Shown: positions 6,001 to 27,488 of the stretch, piece by piece | How the letters are laid out: each line of letters starts with the position of its first letter | Numbering within the stretch: the first letter of the stretch is position 1 | Virus record (IMG/VR): IMGVR_UViG_3300025483_000046 | Span: 1 to 31,269 of that record | From: a virus | Length of the DNA stretch: 31,269 nucleotides | Direction: 5' to 3' (one strand) | Notes under the pieces: model-generated | Seen by the model: only the letters and a program-made list of their open reading frames with translations | Database searches by the model: none | Told to the model about the DNA's origin: nothing | Made by a program: the position numbers and the translations under genes

Positions 6001-7456
6001 TTATGCTTGTGCTCCAAAGGCAGATGCAGGTGGTTATATTTCTACTGCAGCAAACTTTAGTGCATCCAGAACTGCTGTACATATCCAGGGTGGTGGTTCA
6101 ATTGAATTCTTTGGTGCTAGTGCCACAACTACAGCAGTTGGTAGCGATGTTACCATGGATCGTAGAATGTATCTTGACACCAATGGATTCCTTGCTGTTG
6201 GTGGAGCTGAAAATCCTCAAGGTGTACTTGACGTTGTTAAGACAAGATCTGGTGGTGAAATTGGTAGTGTTCTAATCAGACAGGGTGAGGGCAATACAAG
6301 TGGAACTGGTACAGGAATCTTTACCAGAGCATATGGCACGCAATATGCTACATCTAATGGTAGAACTTGTAAGTTATCTTGGGACTTCTACGGTAACATC
6401 AACTCTTCTATGACCTTCTACCGTGGTGGTAGTGTTACTGGTGGATCTATTGCATGGTCTACTAATAACGACACCGAGAGAATGTGGTTGTCATCTAACG
6501 GTACACTCGCAGTTGGTAATGTTGTTTCTTACCCAACTTCTGGAACACAACTTATCTCTTACAACACTTCCTACGGTTATGTTCAGGTCAATACTACTAA
6601 TGCTAGTAAGGGACTTGCTGTAAACTCCACCGCATCAACACAGCAGACGTACTTGCGCTTCCGAGATAATGGTGGTGACGTGGCGGATATGACAGATGCA
6701 AACGGTGGTAATACTTCTGGTGGATTGGTATTCAGAGTTAAGAGAAGAACCACAAATGCTGCATTGAGATTACAATCACAAAACGTAGTTGGAAACGGTG
6801 GTAGTAGTCCTTCCGAAGGAACGATGCAGTTCCAATCATACTCATATTCCAATAATGATTTTACTACTTTAACAAATCCAAGTACGACTTCCCAAAGAGC
6901 ATTTATGTTCATGAGTCATCGAAATGATGGCATTAGAAATATCTTCCAGATGTCTTCTTATGGATTCATTGGAACATATGGAATCGAGAATCCATCATCT
7001 GCTATTCATATACCAACTGCTAATACAGAATCTGGTCGTGGTAGATTTAAACTTGGATACAAGAACACCATTCAAATTGGTGGATATGCTGGATACTTTG
7101 GTGCTTCTAGAAGAGTTGCAAGATTCAAATTAAATGCTTGTAGTAAGAGAGCAATTATTACTGCCAGAGTATCACACGATGGTGGTGGTATGCACGGTGG
7201 TTGGGCACATTTCGATATTGCTTATAACTGCTATACTGCAATTCAGTATAATAGAAATGACGTTAGAAACTGGGGCGCTGGACAAAGTTGGAGTGTTAGT
7301 AGACCAGCTGATGGTAACAATGGTTATGGAAACACTTCCACACTACTTGACGTTACCTGGGGTGGAGCAACATCATTCAATTGTTGCGGTACGTGGACAA
7401 TTGAAGTTTCGACAGAACATCATGATGTTTATCTAATTCAAAATGATGCATTCTAA
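2..7456 (+). CDS. Giant fibre-like structural protein, 5' end outside window
   Basis: The reading frame is open from the first bases, so this is the C-terminal part (about 2,484 residues) of a larger protein; the ATG at 353 is internal. The sequence is rich in Gly, Thr, Ser, Asn and Val with short beta-strand-like repeats: GYTSAP boxes near 1460 and 1583, and repeated GYxxGD-type units between about 1,900 and 2,850. Two LDADxLDG motifs, common in phage tail fibres, lie near 4079 and 4560. The 5,640-6,990 part carries repeats of the type 'NPRLVINSSSSG', also usual in fibres. The last 130 residues are richer in Cys and His. In T4 the short fibre (12) and whisker (wac) genes lie just upstream of gene 13, so a baseplate- or neck-attached adhesin or fibre is the best inference. 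Which fibre it is cannot be told. A CTAAATA late-promoter core overlaps its stop codon. Confidence 0.85.
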   Translation, partial: FCIFTQDGVLAETGGYASITNSASNFGTYALRATGFRKDAYTFDIGTIQNVNQTATGRTIFTINGLGREPLEHFVVKVEQGGIEYVNAQAGTEYTIEQVTPLTTAAPFRAECELSAAMVIENPLSGSPVPVGANLIGATVKLHRPSIVNSSSHTWEFVGSGNDYNALPENGGVKVEANEQVSQNFGRVYTSGTDEVGDFKVGYFAEIENRTGNITFAGSVTISEVEFLKLKGGSVVVTGFSADNTLGGSFASDSLIPTQKAVKDYIGNNLGQFLNKQYSTNAIPRALVELTDSGKISIDQIPALRPFTVFSVKNQSGRLAIEGALAGDIAVQENTEVINIAPTDIDTATDYINKVGHGYSTGFKALWNEGSAAATPAIDGTTYYLYVIDADNFQFAPTETDAINGTSILNFSSQGSGTHTLEVTTGSTSFILNSDLSSQYFGTDATTSFDFPTGNIVTGSLSGAQGEITSYTEGLVYQINVTDAGSGYTSAPSVQITGGGSPSVTATAEAAIAGGQVTTITITNRGEGYTSAPNVQIGAAPGGGTDATGQAFIESRLAIDIVNTKKFEETDDIEDFDSSAGVIKSINIDSNGSNYASDTYTNVATTTNGLGSGAELDITVDSNGNVTSASFASTNNVEQRGTGYSVGDTLTVAAGALNNNSNTGPAATVTVGNSGTGLIDGTFTGIQLLTNGTGSGVVGTVEIAGNAVVSVTITGGGLNYTIGDSLFIPGGSGPDANGTQSNVVLSVASVTLGTGFQSSVTVLRGEIVDLSRVVNTSASVSANWVSLSSSTVNASDLIGGPISTGVLASNSTVANSFTFLRGDQAYAGAVQSIKKAEPRFYERTNAAAAYTPIASTFLTFDEVATIEPGYIVSGTGLVSSVPGQVISLFATGQPEGIPNVAGTGYQTGIFETSTTGAGAGLTANIAVSGGAVTSAIPYLPGENYNVGDTIYLDTPQGAWFANGSWNANDRIYYNTLRYDSLTTGNDFDVNGQTLWTANASFAQDELVYYGFNVYKATSVVADSGTVAPTHITGTVTNLEFIKPLSVPPQHSQGNSIPMKVVADPVANGNYTVGETVTGQTSGITANVISWDSTNYILVCNQFQNSGGSALTGTNGKFQAGEQINGVSGQWSMADQTVWEIVGFLSSITVQQTISGGTTVQSVVTANNVTTVNLSQSIINPGVIDGQTITFTRPESPIILDSTNIQNNFIDQVIILNAGGGYTDGTYNDVPLSGGAGTGLRANITIGGVAGSSGKVTDLIVTSQGIGYTNDFTVSAIPNELGSGNGQIVLEAKVATVVKQLANVTLDIQRVNDDTLSADPFGKVGVARFAKSDFGVLPRRGQFTFGDNGAISIDQGVNSGLDADQLDGQEGAYYLQAGNIVIGFASGQENQAGFNNGFMPTNLLNGLYQNASIGGTAAQATNLNVITNNTSGYFNPNATDNVIEAQLFDNDPTSTDPLADGGTTHGVLTARFLGSGGDAGKAHQLGFTDNGNLWYRIATTGTAWGNWYKFWNQNNDGQGSGLDADILDGKDSSYFENPLNLRNRKWTSTTFVEREYLSDTILPVYQTEKYIDNAINITYSPISYFDVYVSGYDLTQASPINYASTFQIAGSVDLLDLNSQNVGDVTVEAVRAEVNVNDPSQTYTILTVSIVSGGFVKTDSQSGLPVAATRIGTITPNVNVPFINYSPSSQGTVTAISASVVGGNAKMKLGRADNVSTLPALDFHSSGATNNYDSRIQGVGGAGGTLWATGTSYSLGNKVYYGANLYDVTTAGTSGTAPPTHTAGAVVASGGTAVYTYQGNVQDGLGTLNIIAQDVQIGGNQIWTSQNIQFVTGLSGNAYDSNANSVGVIRDSNGDVGFNTVYADLTGAASLNVLKTGDDMTGQLKIFNDNGLGISETGATNPRLVINSSSSGAFIQQNDNSALIFRTDSGTEKVRMRPDNQGGHTEIVGMLVSSGNPTFASNAGSQRGSTAGTIMLAGYYNGSDYLTTIGTRYSTGGMVLGYACAPKADAGGYISTAANFSASRTAVHIQGGGSIEFFGASATTTAVGSDVTMDRRMYLDTNGFLAVGGAENPQGVLDVVKTRSGGEIGSVLIRQGEGNTSGTGTGIFTRAYGTQYATSNGRTCKLSWDFYGNINSSMTFYRGGSVTGGSIAWSTNNDTERMWLSSNGTLAVGNVVSYPTSGTQLISYNTSYGYVQVNTTNASKGLAVNSTASTQQTYLRFRDNGGDVADMTDANGGNTSGGLVFRVKRRTTNAALRLQSQNVVGNGGSSPSEGTMQFQSYSYSNNDFTTLTNPSTTSQRAFMFMSHRNDGIRNIFQMSSYGFIGTYGIENPSSAIHIPTANTESGRGRFKLGYKNTIQIGGYAGYFGASRRVARFKLNACSKRAIITARVSHDGGGMHGGWAHFDIAYNCYTAIQYNRNDVRNWGAGQSWSVSRPADGNNGYGNTSTLLDVTWGGATSFNCCGTWTIEVSTEHHDVYLIQNDAF
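1442..1612 (+). repeat. Two GYTSAP-type repeat units in the fibre gene
   Basis: Two units, at 1442-1489 and 1565-1612, encode VTDAGSGYTSAPSVQI and ITNRGEGYTSAPNVQI, separated by a Gly/Ala-rich linker. A related unit is found in the neck protein gene at 11732-11779, where 35 of 48 bases match the first copy when aligned by codon. This looks like a mobile structural module of phage virion proteins. Confidence 0.8.
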
Positions 7457-7459
7457 ATA
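7453..7459 (+). promoter_or_regulatory. Putative late promoter core CTAAATA
   Basis: CTAAATA overlaps the TAA stop of the fibre gene. It matches the shortened core seen before genes 13, 17 and 18 in this window. A strong ribosome binding site (AAAGGAGG, 7461-7468) follows. A T4-type start about six bases downstream would fall inside that site, so either initiation is slightly earlier or the ribosome site serves read-through transcripts. Confidence 0.4.
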
Positions 7460-8136: not shown

Positions 8137-8332
8137 GGGGACAAGTTACTCTAACAATTCTTACTTTTACATCAAGAAAACATCCACATTCTCTACATCT
8201 TTTTGCTGGAACTTCTTCAAAGTGCTCACACGTCGAACAGATTTTAAGTCGTTGTGTGGGTACTTCTTCGTCTGTATAGACAGGATTAATATCGCCAACT
8301 TTTTTCTTTAATTTTTCCCAATCAATTTTCAT
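8123..8332 (-). CDS. Small cysteine-rich, probably zinc-binding protein (DUF6171-like)
   Basis: This is a 69-aa basic protein with the cysteine pattern CxxC (32, 35), CxxCxC (46, 49, 51) and a final CP (64) close to the C-terminal MKW. The spacing resembles a small treble-clef or zinc-ribbon family that I recall as DUF6171; this was not verified. The start codon overlaps the stop of the upstream minus-strand oxygenase gene by one base, so it is the last gene of a three-gene minus-strand operon. The role is unknown; metal or nucleic-acid binding is likely from the cysteines alone. Confidence 0.75.
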   Translation of the reverse strand: MKIDWEKLKKKVGDINPVYTDEEVPTQRLKICSTCEHFEEVPAKRCRECGCFLDVKVRIVRVTCPLMKW

Positions 8333-9084
8333 TAAAATTCAATCGCGATTTTGTGTAGTTCTTCTCTATTTTGAGATAGCATAATATGATCTCTTTTTGC
8401 ATAAATGTCAAATGCAACTGACACTCTCACGTCATCGCTACTATTTTTTGTAGTCCAATGAGGAACATATGATGGGAATAAAGTTAGATGTCCAGGACTA
8501 TTTTGAATTTGTATGTTTCCTTGAGCATATGGCATTTCGTAATGTGTTTCTGTGTTTGTTGCAGAAACACATATATTTCCACTAATAAATGCATTGCCTA
8601 GATTACTATGGACATGACGTTTAATATTTTGTCCTTTTCTTAAAACATTAAACCAACATACAATGTAAGGATCATAATACATTTTGTTTAGGAAGAAATC
8701 TGCTTGATCTTGATGGGCACCAAGTTCTTTCAAGAACAAATTAAAATTTAATTTTATTTGTTCTTTTAACATAGAAATGCATGGATCATTAAATGCCAAT
8801 AAGTTATATCTTGCAAATCTGGTTGTGACATCATCTTTTCCTAGTCCAGTTCCGCCATCATTATAATAATCAAAATTTGTTAAAATATCAACTTCTTTTC
8901 CGAGTAAGTAATATTTTAAATTATCAATTAGAGTTCCATTTAAGTTGATATTATTATTCCACATCGCCACTTCAAAATATGGAGCGAACGGAGTTAGTGG
9001 TTGAGTGGGACCATCAGTTGGTCCAAATACCATTAACTTATCGGTAAAGATGTCTTTTCTTTTTTCTACAATTGATTCAGTCAT
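8332..9084 (-). CDS. Putative 2OG-Fe(II) oxygenase
   Basis: This 250-aa protein has the layout of phage and marine-bacterial 2-oxoglutarate/iron(II) dioxygenases of the PF13759 type. Residues 157-159 (HVH, in RHVHSNLGNAFISGNICV) supply the first metal ligand, FPSYVPHW contains the distal His209, and Arg220 in DVRVSVAFDI is placed to bind the 2-oxoglutarate carboxylate. These enzymes couple decarboxylation of 2-oxoglutarate to hydroxylation of a substrate; the substrate cannot be deduced. The gene overlaps the upstream oxygenase gene by four bases (ATGA), so they form one translation-coupled unit. Its wobble positions look more AT-rich than those of the neighbouring capsid and tail genes. Confidence 0.75.
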   Translation of the reverse strand: MTESIVEKRKDIFTDKLMVFGPTDGPTQPLTPFAPYFEVAMWNNNINLNGTLIDNLKYYLLGKEVDILTNFDYYNDGGTGLGKDDVTTRFARYNLLAFNDPCISMLKEQIKLNFNLFLKELGAHQDQADFFLNKMYYDPYIVCWFNVLRKGQNIKRHVHSNLGNAFISGNICVSATNTETHYEMPYAQGNIQIQNSPGHLTLFPSYVPHWTTKNSSDDVRVSVAFDIYAKRDHIMLSQNREELHKIAIEF

Positions 9085-9812
9085 ATAATAAATCCAGCTA
9101 AACTATTTCTTGTTTTTTCAGAGAACCATTCTTTTTTGGTGTAAACAAAATGAAAACATGCTGCTGGATAGATGACCAGTCTATTTGGTTTCATTTCAGA
9201 AATTATTTTTATCTCCCATATAGAATCATCTATTTCAGAGTAATCAAAATCTGCTTTTTTTAATTTAAATTGCTCAAACGGAGTTTTCATGTCACTCATA
9301 ATTTTAGCAGATTTTACAATGTCTAGTGAAGGATTCAAATAATGTGAATTTGATTCTTTATGAATGCAAAATCCTGTTCCACCTTTACAGTCTTCTTCGT
9401 CATTAAACCAGAGATTGAAAGCATATGCACATGGATCCATGTGTGGTTGCACAGTAGAATATGGGCATTTGTTGCTAGTATCAAATATATTAGTCTGATA
9501 CTTTATCTCTTCTACGCGATTATCTTGATACACATTTGAGATAACATCAAAAATTTTATTAGTAATATTATCAAATCTGTAACTTAAGGTTGTATGATAA
9601 CCAGGAGCAAATCCATGTTCGTGATTAACTTCAAATCCAGCAGAAACATTTTTTTCTACGGGAATAGAAAGAACAAAATCTCTAAATTCTGAAAAATTTT
9701 CGATAAAGTTGTCAATCTCTACAATCGGTGTATAATTGTAGTTAATTATGTTATAATCTGATTGTTCGGATACTACGAACTTACTGGTGTCAATGACCTT
9801 CATCTGCGACAT
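9081..9812 (-). CDS. Putative 2OG-Fe(II) oxygenase-like protein (DUF6445-type)
   Basis: This 243-aa protein has an HxD motif (His124, Asp126 in VQPHMDPCAYAFNLWFND), a Gly-rich turn (CKGGTGF), and a distal His221 after RLVIYPAACFHF, followed by Arg235. This is the iron- and 2-oxoglutarate-binding order of the double-stranded beta-helix dioxygenases. It resembles the family I recall as DUF6445, not verified. It is first in the minus-strand operon. Two starts are possible: ATG at 9812 and ATG at 9803; neither has a clear ribosome site, and the longer is given. The 5' end is next to the late promoter for the divergent plus-strand gene. No promoter for the minus strand is convincing. Substrate unknown. 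Confidence 0.7.
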   Translation of the reverse strand: MSQMKVIDTSKFVVSEQSDYNIINYNYTPIVEIDNFIENFSEFRDFVLSIPVEKNVSAGFEVNHEHGFAPGYHTTLSYRFDNITNKIFDVISNVYQDNRVEEIKYQTNIFDTSNKCPYSTVQPHMDPCAYAFNLWFNDEEDCKGGTGFCIHKESNSHYLNPSLDIVKSAKIMSDMKTPFEQFKLKKADFDYSEIDDSIWEIKIISEMKPNRLVIYPAACFHFVYTKKEWFSEKTRNSLAGFII

Positions 9813-9820
9813 TATAAATA
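9813..9820 (+). promoter_or_regulatory. T4-type late promoter, exact TATAAATA
   Basis: This is a perfect match to the T4 late promoter core recognised by gp55-loaded RNA polymerase. It sits 36 bases before the ATG of the 75-codon coiled-coil gene and is the only plus-strand exact TATAAATA noticed directly before a gene here. The other sites are NATAAATA or CTAAATA variants. Confidence 0.75.
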
Positions 9821-9855
9821 ACCCATACTATATAGTTTACCATTTTTTAGTAACC

Positions 9856-10080
9856 ATGGCAATGAACACTGATGAACTTCGTAAAAATTTTGAAGACCAA
9901 CTGAAGACTACTGCTGGTCAAATTTCTGAATTGGAAGCAAACCTAACGAAGGCAAAAGAATACAGAACAAAACTAGAAGGTGGTCTAGAGACTCTCAACC
10001 TTCTAGAAGGAAAAGAAACTCCTCCCGAAGGATCTCCCCCTGAAGGAGAAGAAATTTCAGAAGAAACACTTACTGAATAA
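9856..10080 (+). CDS. Small acidic coiled-coil protein, unknown role
   Basis: The protein has 74 residues from the ATG at 9856 (alternative ATG at 9862). A longer in-frame start at 9787 would begin upstream of the late promoter and read through it, so it was rejected. Residues 3-45 form a heptad-like amphipathic helix (ELRKNFEDQL, QISELEANLTKAKEYRTKLEGGLETL). The tail is acidic and Pro/Gly/Glu-rich with a repeated PPEG unit. The gene is a stand-alone unit, with an exact TATAAATA promoter in front and a strong intrinsic terminator just after the stop. That arrangement suggests an abundant late protein, possibly a virion or assembly component. No family recognised. Confidence 0.8.
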   Translation: MAMNTDELRKNFEDQLKTTAGQISELEANLTKAKEYRTKLEGGLETLNLLEGKETPPEGSPPEGEEISEETLTE

Positions 10081-10087
10081 TCCAATC

Positions 10088-10122
10088 TCCCTTCTTACTA
10101 AATAGGTAAGAAGGGATTTTTT
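10088..10122 (+). terminator. Rho-independent terminator between coiled-coil gene and gp13
   Basis: An 11-bp perfect stem (10088-10098 with 10106-10116, core CCCTTCTTAC / GTAAGAAGGG) encloses a seven-base loop and is followed by six T residues (10117-10122). It starts seven bases after the stop codon of the preceding gene. The loop and last stem base contain the late core CTAAATA. Confidence 0.9.
10098..10104 (+). promoter_or_regulatory. Late promoter core CTAAATA in the terminator loop (gp13)
   Basis: CTAAATA occupies the end of the left stem arm and most of the loop of the terminator. With T4 spacing, transcription would start about six bases downstream, inside the right arm, so gp13 mRNA would lack an intact hairpin while upstream transcripts would form it. 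Confidence 0.6.
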
Positions 10123-10129
10123 GTGTGTA

Positions 10130-10930
10130 ATGGCGTCTCCAAATTCAAGAGCTGATCTTATCACATATTGTAAGAGGCAACTTGGTGAGCCTGTATTGCA
10201 AGTCAACATCGATGATGAGCAAGTAAATAATGTTATTGATGACACGTATCAGTTCTTCCAAGAGAATTGCTACAACGGCATGGAGAGATGCTATCTAGTT
10301 CATGAGATTACTGCTGCAGATAAAACAAGACTTTCCGAAACTACTACAAAGACCGTTGGAACAACCGAGTGGAAAGAATCCACAAATTATATTCCCATTC
10401 CAGATCATGTTGTAGGAATCAGTAAAGTATTTGGAATGGTTGGTAACTCAATTCGTTCAAATCTTTTTGGAGTTGAATATCAAATTTTCTTAAACGACCT
10501 TTATGCGTTTGGATCTCTTGATATTCTTAACTACTTTATGACCAAGCAACATCTAGAAACTTTGGATATGATTCTCAACAATGGATCTTTTCAACAGTTT
10601 AGATACACACAAAGACGTGACCGTCTTTACCTAGACATCAACAAAGACTTTTTACAAGAAGGTCAGAATCTGTTGGTTGAAGCACATAGACTCATTGATC
10701 CAACAGATGCAACAGAGATGAACAATGATTTGTTCGTCAAAAAATATGCTACTGCTCTAATGAAAAAACAATGGGGTCAGAACCTCATTAAGTATACTAA
10801 TGTACAACTGCCTGGTGGTATCACCCTTAATGGCAGAGAGATTTATACAGATGCACTCGCAGAAATCGAAAAGATTGAAAGCGAAGTATTGAGCAAGTAT
10901 GCAATCCCACCAATGGATTTAATCGGATAA
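10130..10930 (+). CDS. gp13: gp13-like neck protein
   Basis: This is the homologue of T4 gp13, which with gp14 forms the neck that joins the filled head to the tail. The N-terminus MASPNSRADLITYCKRQLGE and the following VNIDDEQVNNVIDDTYQFFQE are typical of the cyanophage version. The length (266 aa) is a little below T4 gp13 (about 309). The ATG at 10130 is chosen over a TTG at 10121 because it begins the conserved MASPNSR and the TTG lies in the terminator's T-run. Gene 14 follows after one base. The mRNA probably starts at the late promoter in the terminator loop. Confidence 0.9.
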   Translation: MASPNSRADLITYCKRQLGEPVLQVNIDDEQVNNVIDDTYQFFQENCYNGMERCYLVHEITAADKTRLSETTTKTVGTTEWKESTNYIPIPDHVVGISKVFGMVGNSIRSNLFGVEYQIFLNDLYAFGSLDILNYFMTKQHLETLDMILNNGSFQQFRYTQRRDRLYLDINKDFLQEGQNLLVEAHRLIDPTDATEMNNDLFVKKYATALMKKQWGQNLIKYTNVQLPGGITLNGREIYTDALAEIEKIESEVLSKYAIPPMDLIG

Positions 10931-12867: not shown

Positions 12868-13278
12868 ATGAGTTTAGAAGATAACATGGAAGAAATCCTC
12901 AATATTAGTGCTGAACCTGTTGAGGAATCTAAACCATCAAAACCACAACCACCAAAGGTTGATGAGGAAGATCGCGAAAAAGATTACAGATATACCAGAG
13001 GAGAACTCTACAGTCTCATAGATCACGGTCAGGAGGCAGTCAGAGGCGCTTTAGAGGTCGCACAGGAGTCAGGGCACCCAAGAGCGTATGAAGTCGCTGT
13101 AGCGGCAATGAAGCACGTTGCAGACATGACAGAGAAACTCCAAGATCTTCACAAGAAGATGAAAGATCTCGACGAAGAAAAGAAAGGTCCATCCAAGGTT
13201 ACCAACAATGCTATGTTTGTAGGATCTACAGCAGAGCTTCAAAAGATGCTTAAAGATATGAGTGGTGGCAAACGCTAA
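12868..13278 (+). CDS. gp16: gp16-like terminase small subunit
   Basis: This 136-aa protein is in the position of T4 gene 16 and has the expected helical layout. An acidic, Pro-rich N-terminus is followed by YRYTRGELYSLIDHGQEAVRGALEVAQESGHPRAYEVAVAAMKHVADMTEKLQDLHKKMKDL, a long helical hairpin like the oligomerising core of T4-type small terminases. These proteins recognise and feed concatemeric DNA to the large subunit gp17. The ATG at 12868 is chosen over a TTG at 12859 that overlaps the end of gene 15. The stop codon is part of a CTAAATA late-promoter core. Unlike T4, gene 17 is not adjacent but about 4.3 kb downstream. Confidence 0.8.
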   Translation: MSLEDNMEEILNISAEPVEESKPSKPQPPKVDEEDREKDYRYTRGELYSLIDHGQEAVRGALEVAQESGHPRAYEVAVAAMKHVADMTEKLQDLHKKMKDLDEEKKGPSKVTNNAMFVGSTAELQKMLKDMSGGKR

Positions 13279-13286
13279 ATAGTTTG
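13269..13286 (+). promoter_or_regulatory. Late promoter core CTAAATA inside a small dyad
   Basis: CTAAATA (13275-13281) overlaps the stop codon of gene 16 and is flanked by CAAAC (13269-13273) and GTTTG (13282-13286), a perfect 5-bp inverted repeat with the core in the eight-base loop. No T-run follows. It is placed 25 bases before the ATG of the next gene. Confidence 0.5.
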
Positions 13287-17314: not shown

Positions 17315-17600
17315 GGAACTGTCGGATCTCAAACTTGAGAGAAAAGAATGTCCTAAATGTGGTGCTACTTGGATTAACGGCAAGCATGTCTTTAGAGGCA
17401 CTGCCGCATCATATGACAAGAGTGAATTAGACCTTGCTGGTCTTGTTTGTAATAACTACGGAAACGATCAGTGCATCAATCCATCAAAAGGAAAAGATGG
17501 TGGAACTACTTGGGAATATAGAGCTGGTTACATTGATGGCATGATTAAAGAAAAAAAAGATTCCTTGAATGAACTAAACGATAAGTTTGGCGATCTCTAA
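17301..17600 (+). CDS. Zinc-ribbon-like protein of unknown function, 99 aa
   Basis: It starts at ATG 17301, overlapping the previous gene by 14 bases. CPKCG near residue 17 and two later cysteines (LVCNNYGNDQCIN) make a plausible four-cysteine zinc site. The C-terminus is a charged helix (YIDGMIKEKKDSLNELNDKF). No catalytic motif is visible. Its stop codon is part of a CTAAATA late core for gene 17. Confidence 0.7.
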   Translation: MTNDKELSDLKLERKECPKCGATWINGKHVFRGTAASYDKSELDLAGLVCNNYGNDQCINPSKGKDGGTTWEYRAGYIDGMIKEKKDSLNELNDKFGDL

Positions 17601-17619
17601 ATACTAGCAGTGAACTAGT
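17597..17619 (+). promoter_or_regulatory. Late promoter core and hairpin before gene 17
   Basis: CTAAATA (17597-17603) overlaps the stop codon of the preceding gene. Directly after it, ACTAG (17603-17607) and CTAGT (17615-17619) form a small hairpin with a seven-base loop, followed by TTTTG. It lies between the promoter and the GTG start at 17626, where a ribosome binding site would be expected but is not obvious. Confidence 0.5.
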
Positions 17620-27451: not shown

Positions 27452-27477
27452 AGGGACGCTGCGGCGTCCCTTTTTTT
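27452..27477 (+). terminator. Strong rho-independent terminator after gene 23
   Basis: The GC-rich stem GGGACGC (27453-27459) and GCGTCCC (27464-27470), extendable by an A-T pair, has a four-base loop and is followed by seven T. It is 22 bases after the gp23 stop and clearly ends the head-gene transcript. Confidence 0.95.
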
Positions 27478-27481
27478 GTGC

Positions 27482-27488
27482 TTAAATA
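27482..27488 (+). promoter_or_regulatory. Possible late promoter core TTAAATA
   Basis: TTAAATA differs by one base from the CTAAATA cores. It follows the gp23 terminator and precedes the 55-aa gene by about 22 bases. It is supported by position more than by sequence. Confidence 0.35.

Follow-up and report, generated by a model that had tools for sequence, protein, structure and literature searches.

Late promoters that lie inside RNA hairpins have been described for the T4 genes e, soc, I-TevI and segB and for mobE of phage Aeh1 (PMC3014915, PMC2988022). In these systems the late RNA is without the 5' arm of the hairpin and the hairpin masks the ribosome site. The T4-type late promoters themselves carry TATAAATA, with CTAAATA in Aeh1 and a degenerate -13 position in S-PM2; the late core is found at -13 to -6 in T4-like phages and the CTAAATA of Aeh1 begins at -12 (PMC1524935). 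No description was found of a terminator that holds a late promoter in its loop, within a literature that was open-licence only and available in part, and this absence is weak evidence. The preliminary description of the locus reported here knew of no such device but could not exclude one; within the same literature this holds for a terminator with a promoter in its loop but not for late promoters in hairpins as such, which have long been known in T4 as translation locks. It is likely that a 35-bp element immediately upstream of gene 13 in a T4-like cyanophage combines an intrinsic terminator with a late promoter, with termination, the start by gp55-polymerase and the benefit of insulation being inferred.

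The element between the PHROG 580 gene and gene 13

The window, that is the whole stretch of DNA that was analysed, is a virus record of 31,269 bases and represents a fragment of a T4-like cyanophage with genes for terminase, sheath, portal, scaffold and gp23. The features at and around the element are listed below.

9813..9820, + strand: late promoter of the small upstream gene, TATAAATA, with a predicted +1 at 9826 (from the sequence)
9856..10080, + strand: small upstream gene, 74 aa, PHROG 580, function unknown; stop codon at 10078-10080
10088..10099, + strand: left arm of the terminator hairpin (from the fold and from covariation in relatives)
10098..10104, + strand: late promoter core of the gp55 type, CTAAATA, at -12 to -6, spanning the loop and the top two stem pairs
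10105..10116, + strand: right arm of the terminator hairpin, GGTAAGAAGGGA (from the fold; GAAGGGATT is retained in relatives without the full left arm)
10110..10110, + strand: predicted late transcription start, a G in the right arm (inferred from the core-to-start spacing in PMC1524935; unmapped)
10110..10129, + strand: predicted 20-nt late leader of gene 13, GAAGGGATTTTTTGTGTGTA (inferred)
10117..10122, + strand: T6 run, both terminator U-tract and part of the gene 13 leader (from the sequence)
10130..10930, + strand: gene 13, neck protein / head-tail adaptor Ad2, 266 aa (PHROG 211; gp13 annotation in relatives)

The sequence of the element (10088-10122) is TCCCTTCTTACTAAATAGGTAAGAAGGGATTTTTT. 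Its RNA folds into a hairpin of 12 bp (10088-10099 with 10105-10116) around the loop AAATA at -17.9 kcal/mol (z -5.2), a stability that was reached by none of 200 shuffles, and it is the best among 15 terminator-like sites in the first 16 kb of the window. The stable GC-containing stem with T6 directly after it satisfies the sequence criterion for an intrinsic terminator, and CTAAATA, invariant in relatives and with a predicted leader of 20 nt, that for a T4-type late promoter. The right arm holds only a weak Shine-Dalgarno sequence (AAGG), ~15 nt from the ATG.

The preliminary description had given an 11-bp stem, the loop TAAATAG and a six-T tail, which is the same hairpin without its top U-G pair, and had placed CTAAATA across the loop, where it is indeed found. 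Its assignment of gene 13 is borne out by the match of the protein to PHROG 211 (head-tail adaptor Ad2; E 3e-44), with the start at ATG 10130 and not at the TTG 10121 of a mechanical ORF list. It had further expected late RNA to begin at 10108-10112, in the right arm, and to form no hairpin. The +1 of 10110 given by the spacing agrees with this range, as a prediction only, and because this G sits inside the right arm the late RNA would be unable to form the hairpin. The RNA from 10110 to 10160 was computed to have no stable structure (-4.5 kcal/mol, z +1.5), and read-through RNA contains the whole hairpin.

Gene 13 is followed by genes 14 (head closure Hc2) and 15 (tail sheath stabilizer). Each of the small PHROG 580 gene and gene 13 has a late promoter of its own as predicted from sequence, and among 134 relatives 100 carry a late core within the 60 nt preceding their homologue of the small gene. 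The window itself is a 31-kb fragment; the annotation of the related phage S-B43 includes a putative late sigma factor gene. Directly before the small gene the plus-strand late region is broken by two minus-strand genes (8332-9812), encoding a 2OG-Fe(II) oxygenase (PHROG 81) and a minor coat protein (PHROG 1644). Elsewhere in the window an ordinary strong terminator, AGGGACGCTGCGGCGTCCCTTTTTTT (27452-27477), stands directly 3' of the major capsid gene gp23, with TTAAATA at 27482. At three further places (7453-7459, 13275-13281 and 17597-17603) CTAAATA and the TAA stop codon of the preceding gene overlap, and the stop thereby also forms part of the next gene's promoter.

Conservation and covariation upstream of gene 13

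Two sets of gene 13 loci were taken from IMG/VR, one of 80 loci with a protein identity of 84-88% (set 1) and the other of 80 relatives of the S-RIM44 gene 13 protein (~50% identical to the window protein; set 2). Together they gave 159 usable upstream regions, the window included, with 62 distinct elements. The core, as [AC]TAAATA, was present in all 159, and the hairpin and T-run in nearly all, though the stems differ. The usual stem of set 1 is ATCCCTTCTT/AAGAAGGGAT, and those of set 2 are AGTCCCTGCCTG/CAGGTAGGGACT, AATCCCTACCTG/CAGGTAGGGATT, AATCCCTGCTTC/GAAGTAGGGATT or AAGTCCCTTCTTG/CAAGAAGGGATT; for the stems CCCTTCTT, CCCTGCCTG, CCCTACCTG, CCCTGCTTC and CCCTTCTTG the right arm matches each. 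At the gene 13 loci that were tabulated the core ends 24-30 nt 5' of the ATG. Named phages with the device at gene 13 are S-RSM4, S-WAM2, ACG-2014h, S-RIM44, S-RIM32, Sf-CH11, Sf-CH3 and S-PM2 (element near 66786-66820 of AJ630128). A variant at gene 13, ATAAATACCCTTAGGAAACTAGGGGTATTTTTTTATG (L257-L268), has the core as part of the left arm and its predicted start in the loop, which is a different geometry with the same consequence as in the window.

Among the 22 distinct elements of set 2, 96% of the stem cells pair and four pairs have two-sided changes, in 26 cells; the covariation score was 0.287 as against 0.154 +- 0.015 for shuffles and at most 0.117 for slid controls. Those stem cells that are not Watson-Crick are G-U and never A-C, with 16 and 0 respectively in the gene 13 inner stem and 10 and 0 in a second family of elements described below. 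Since selection on a DNA palindrome would favour neither, the structure acts in the coding-strand RNA, and a further criterion for an intrinsic terminator, a structure kept as RNA, is met by these exceptions and the covariation. The T-run is present on one side of the core only.

There were exceptions to the full arrangement. A minority of set 1 (the L030, L031, L048, L052 and L056 types) keeps CTAAATA and GAAGGGAT (or GGAAGGGAT) with a left arm that is short or broken and with no T-run, and in these types the upstream stop codon is inside the core or ends 3 nt before it. With the stop codon so placed, the left arm in these types is translated or covered by the terminating ribosome. Wherever the left arm or T-run was lost among the gene 13 relatives the core was retained. 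A T-run of at least 5 was found in 56 of the 57 distinct elements with a stop at least 15 nt upstream of the core and in one of the 10 whose stop overlaps or nearly reaches it. By element counts, with kinship ignored, this gives a Fisher value of 2e-9. On the gene 13 tree there were ~3 supported independent contrasts (5 on all branches) and none in the opposite direction. As only some three contrasts are supported, the link is not significant with relatedness counted, and the association is suggestive, no more than a hint. No device was present at gene 13 in S-CAM1, Syn9 or S-B43. The device is thus useful and not essential, given that some relatives are without it and that others keep the core and right arm without a T-run.

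Recurrence at other loci

The anatomy of the element, its conservation and its covariation are matters of observation, and so is its recurrence. A whole-genome scan found a second site in S-RIM44 (144840), ACG-2014h (139299), S-WAM2 (143172) and S-CAM1 (164558), which by annotation lies downstream of the gp41/mazG replication-gene cluster and upstream of a large hypothetical gene; a similar element was found by pattern in S-RSM4 (44456). The layout of this second family is ACCTCCC-CTAAATA-...-GGGAGG-TTTTTT-ATG with a perfect Shine-Dalgarno sequence in the right arm, and a scan of IMG/VR revealed ACCTCCC(CT)CTAAATAGTTAGACGGGAGGTTTTTTCAT-ATG in many contigs. The GGAGG is mostly 6-10 nt 5' of the ATG and usually 0-3 nt downstream of the predicted +1, and all five Shine-Dalgarno bases were paired with the left arm in 67 of 80 folds. 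The scanner also flagged, as a positive control, the leader of T4 gene 49 (AATAAATACCCTTATCTATTTAAGGTAAGGGTTTATTATG), which has the same hairpin/late-promoter layout and which we take to be a member of the T4 lock group.

Blind scans of the collection for a core followed by GC and T6/T7 were meant for new families and as controls. They matched gp13-like (L605, L625, L659) and gp5-like (L559, L572, L592) genes in other T4-like viruses, where the stems are unrelated and the ATG follows the T-run directly or almost directly. At least two matches (L699, L705) stand before genes other than T4-like late genes, and the background is high, with GC-then-T7 patterns being terminators in about half of unrelated viral contigs (66/120 and 65/103); single blind-scan cases can therefore be chance. 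A caveat that follows from the same background is that left-arm complementarity is weak evidence if the pattern already has a T-run, as about half of the matches in unrelated viruses are ordinary terminators. For the second family a pattern demanding neither left arm nor T-run was used instead. Left-arm complementarity was 6/6 in 76 of 78 cases and a T-run of at least 4 was present in 77 of 78; the genes downstream have at least 28 different N-termini. Among 96 other GGAGG-led genes without the core, a T-run of at least 4 after the Shine-Dalgarno sequence was found in one. A search of IMG/VR for relatives of the second-family protein P0005 gave only two partial matches because the downstream proteins differ between phages.

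It is also apparent that at the variable site after mazG a near-identical terminator/late-promoter/Shine-Dalgarno element precedes many different proteins of 340-580 aa (L325-L404 and L467-L497 in IMG/VR and the sites given above for S-WAM2, ACG-2014h, S-RIM44 and S-CAM1), an arrangement that resembles a fixed expression slot with exchangeable cargo. The proteins belong to PHROG 1462, PHROG 8438 and PHROG 13937, others being without a family; Pfam gave no match for three of them, and motifs such as NPADIW...GVSLKK are nuclease-like by eye only. A further type, TAAATACCTCCATATGGAGGTTTTTT, found in S-PM2 (AJ630128, 115171-115196) after an nrd gene and at L353 and L393, has its hairpin immediately after the core; transcription is predicted to start in the loop or at its edge, and the right arm contains the Shine-Dalgarno sequence. 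Other terminators with TAAATA at the loop occur in S-CAM1 (157663, after regA) and ACG-2014f (56164, upstream of gp25).

Proposed mechanism, alternatives and known systems

Polymerase arriving from the PHROG 580 unit would copy both arms and the U6 tract, the hairpin would form and transcription would stop near 10122. Polymerase carrying gp55, the phage late sigma factor, would read the CTAAATA in the loop and start near 10110, beyond the left arm. Late RNA begun there would have GAAGGGA-U6 only and no hairpin, and would continue into genes 13, 14 and 15. Within ~35 bp upstream RNA would be ended and gene 13 given its own start. In the second family (GGGAGG-T6-ATG) the start point may also free the ribosome site held in the right arm, and because that arm holds the Shine-Dalgarno sequence the read-through RNA would be both terminated and untranslatable. 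The element most likely separates two late units, with no RNA ends mapped and termination unmeasured; that termination occurs, that the start depends on gp55, exactly where it lies and that unit separation is the selected benefit are all inferred. To our knowledge the cyanobacterial hosts are thought to lack Rho. The wider proposal is of a portable module of 35-40 bp in T4-like viruses, a terminator with a gp55-type promoter in its loop and, in one family, a Shine-Dalgarno sequence in its right arm, from which new RNA escapes termination and masking while read-through is stopped and locked. It would have been built repeatedly, as unrelated stems at orthologous gp13 and gp5 genes suggest, and would provide a fixed slot for interchangeable genes after mazG; for this the balance of acceptance and doubt is about even.

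Of the alternatives the one that survives best, though improbable, is a translation lock of the kind seen in T4 (e, soc, 49, I-TevI), in which the hairpin mainly masks the ribosome site on read-through RNA, the late promoter is so positioned that late RNA is without the 5' arm, and there is little or no termination. Such locks are established in T4, the leader of gene 49 is laid out in the same way and has hardly any U-tract, some gene 13 relatives have a weaker hairpin without a T-run, and in the second family the GGAGG lies in the right arm 6-10 nt before the ATG, fully paired with the left arm. A lock alone, however, has no need of a U-tract, and the window has T6 and the T-run is conserved. 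It is kept where a terminator could work (the 56 of 57 elements above) and follows the Shine-Dalgarno sequence in just 1/96 of the core-less GGAGG-led genes, and at gene 13 in the window the right arm offers a ribosome site that is both weak and distant from the ATG.

It is very unlikely that the element merely terminates the upstream gene in the ordinary way, with CTAAATA in its loop by chance and with gene 13 transcribed from elsewhere. Bare CTAAATA is admittedly not enriched in the window (7 found vs 6.75 expected, all seven on the + strand), and terminators with TAAATA in the loop also occur in unrelated viruses. Several of the window copies precede genes with a predicted leader of 16-38 nt, and some overlap the preceding TAA stop. 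When core, enclosing stem and T-tail were scored together the element reached 16, and none of 1500 first-order resamplings of the window matched it, the best of them scoring 12. The preliminary description had proposed a scan of related cyanophages for the core within terminator loops. Strong terminators, 416 in all, were catalogued in 16 complete or partial T4-like genomes (T4, the window and 14 other cyanophages). TAAATA lay in or within 3 nt of the loop in 14 of them, as against 0-4 for each of the other 14 orderings of A4T2; the 14 terminators are not independent events, since some are orthologous. One case that had been named as refuting, relatives that keep the hairpin and lose CTAAATA, is the opposite of what was found. 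No part of the element is more conserved than the core, which is invariant in the 159 loci and survives loss of the left arm or T-run; it is the stem that varies, with compensation. The core also keeps its distance of 24-30 nt from the ATG at the tabulated gene 13 loci and recurs at other late genes. A chance loop motif was rejected on the conservation in relatives together with the window resampling. The earlier proposal that a single element terminates the upstream unit and initiates that of gene 13 has thus gained support from the invariant core, the compensated stems and the recurrence, the RNA ends being unmapped.

Least credible is an ordinary late promoter whose palindrome works as DNA, either as a cruciform or as the operator of a dimeric protein, and not as an RNA signal. 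The S-RIM44-like group does show symmetry of the arms about the core, but the arms vary in sequence between lineages, the T-run is one-sided, and the reading was rejected on the G-U-only exceptions, which a DNA palindrome would not tell apart from A-C. An N4-type DNA hairpin promoter, as used by a virion RNA polymerase on single-stranded DNA, likewise does not fit, the element having a T4 late-type core, variable arms and RNA-specific G-U exceptions.

If the element is a terminator and late promoter in one, a very short sequence marks both the end of one transcription unit and the beginning of another, and polymerase gets past it only by starting within it. Phages with compact genomes could then keep adjacent genes apart at no cost in intergenic DNA, and the classical idea of the T4 translation lock would be extended to transcription termination. 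There would also be a simple rule for locating the borders of transcription units in cyanophages, and synthetic constructs could use the element as an insulated promoter just as it stands.

Three known systems bear comparison with the element. It resembles T4-type late promoters in its core sequence and in the distance of the core to the gene (PMC1524935), and differs from the ordinary ones in that its core is framed by a terminator stem. Like intrinsic (Rho-independent) terminators it has a GC-containing stem, a short loop and a U6 tract directly after a stop codon, but unlike ordinary ones it holds a conserved promoter core in the loop, and its right arm opens the leader of the next unit. 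The third group is that of T4 e, soc, 49, I-TevI and segB and Aeh1 mobE, where, as here, a late promoter lies in or at a hairpin just 5' of a gene. The hairpins of the T4 locks mask the ribosome site, most of them on read-through RNA of the early or middle period, and the available accounts of them do not call them terminators. In the window, by contrast, there is a U-tract terminator with the core in its loop, and the upstream unit is itself late. What is new relative to the T4 translation locks, as far as those accounts extend, is that an intrinsic terminator is used as the hairpin.
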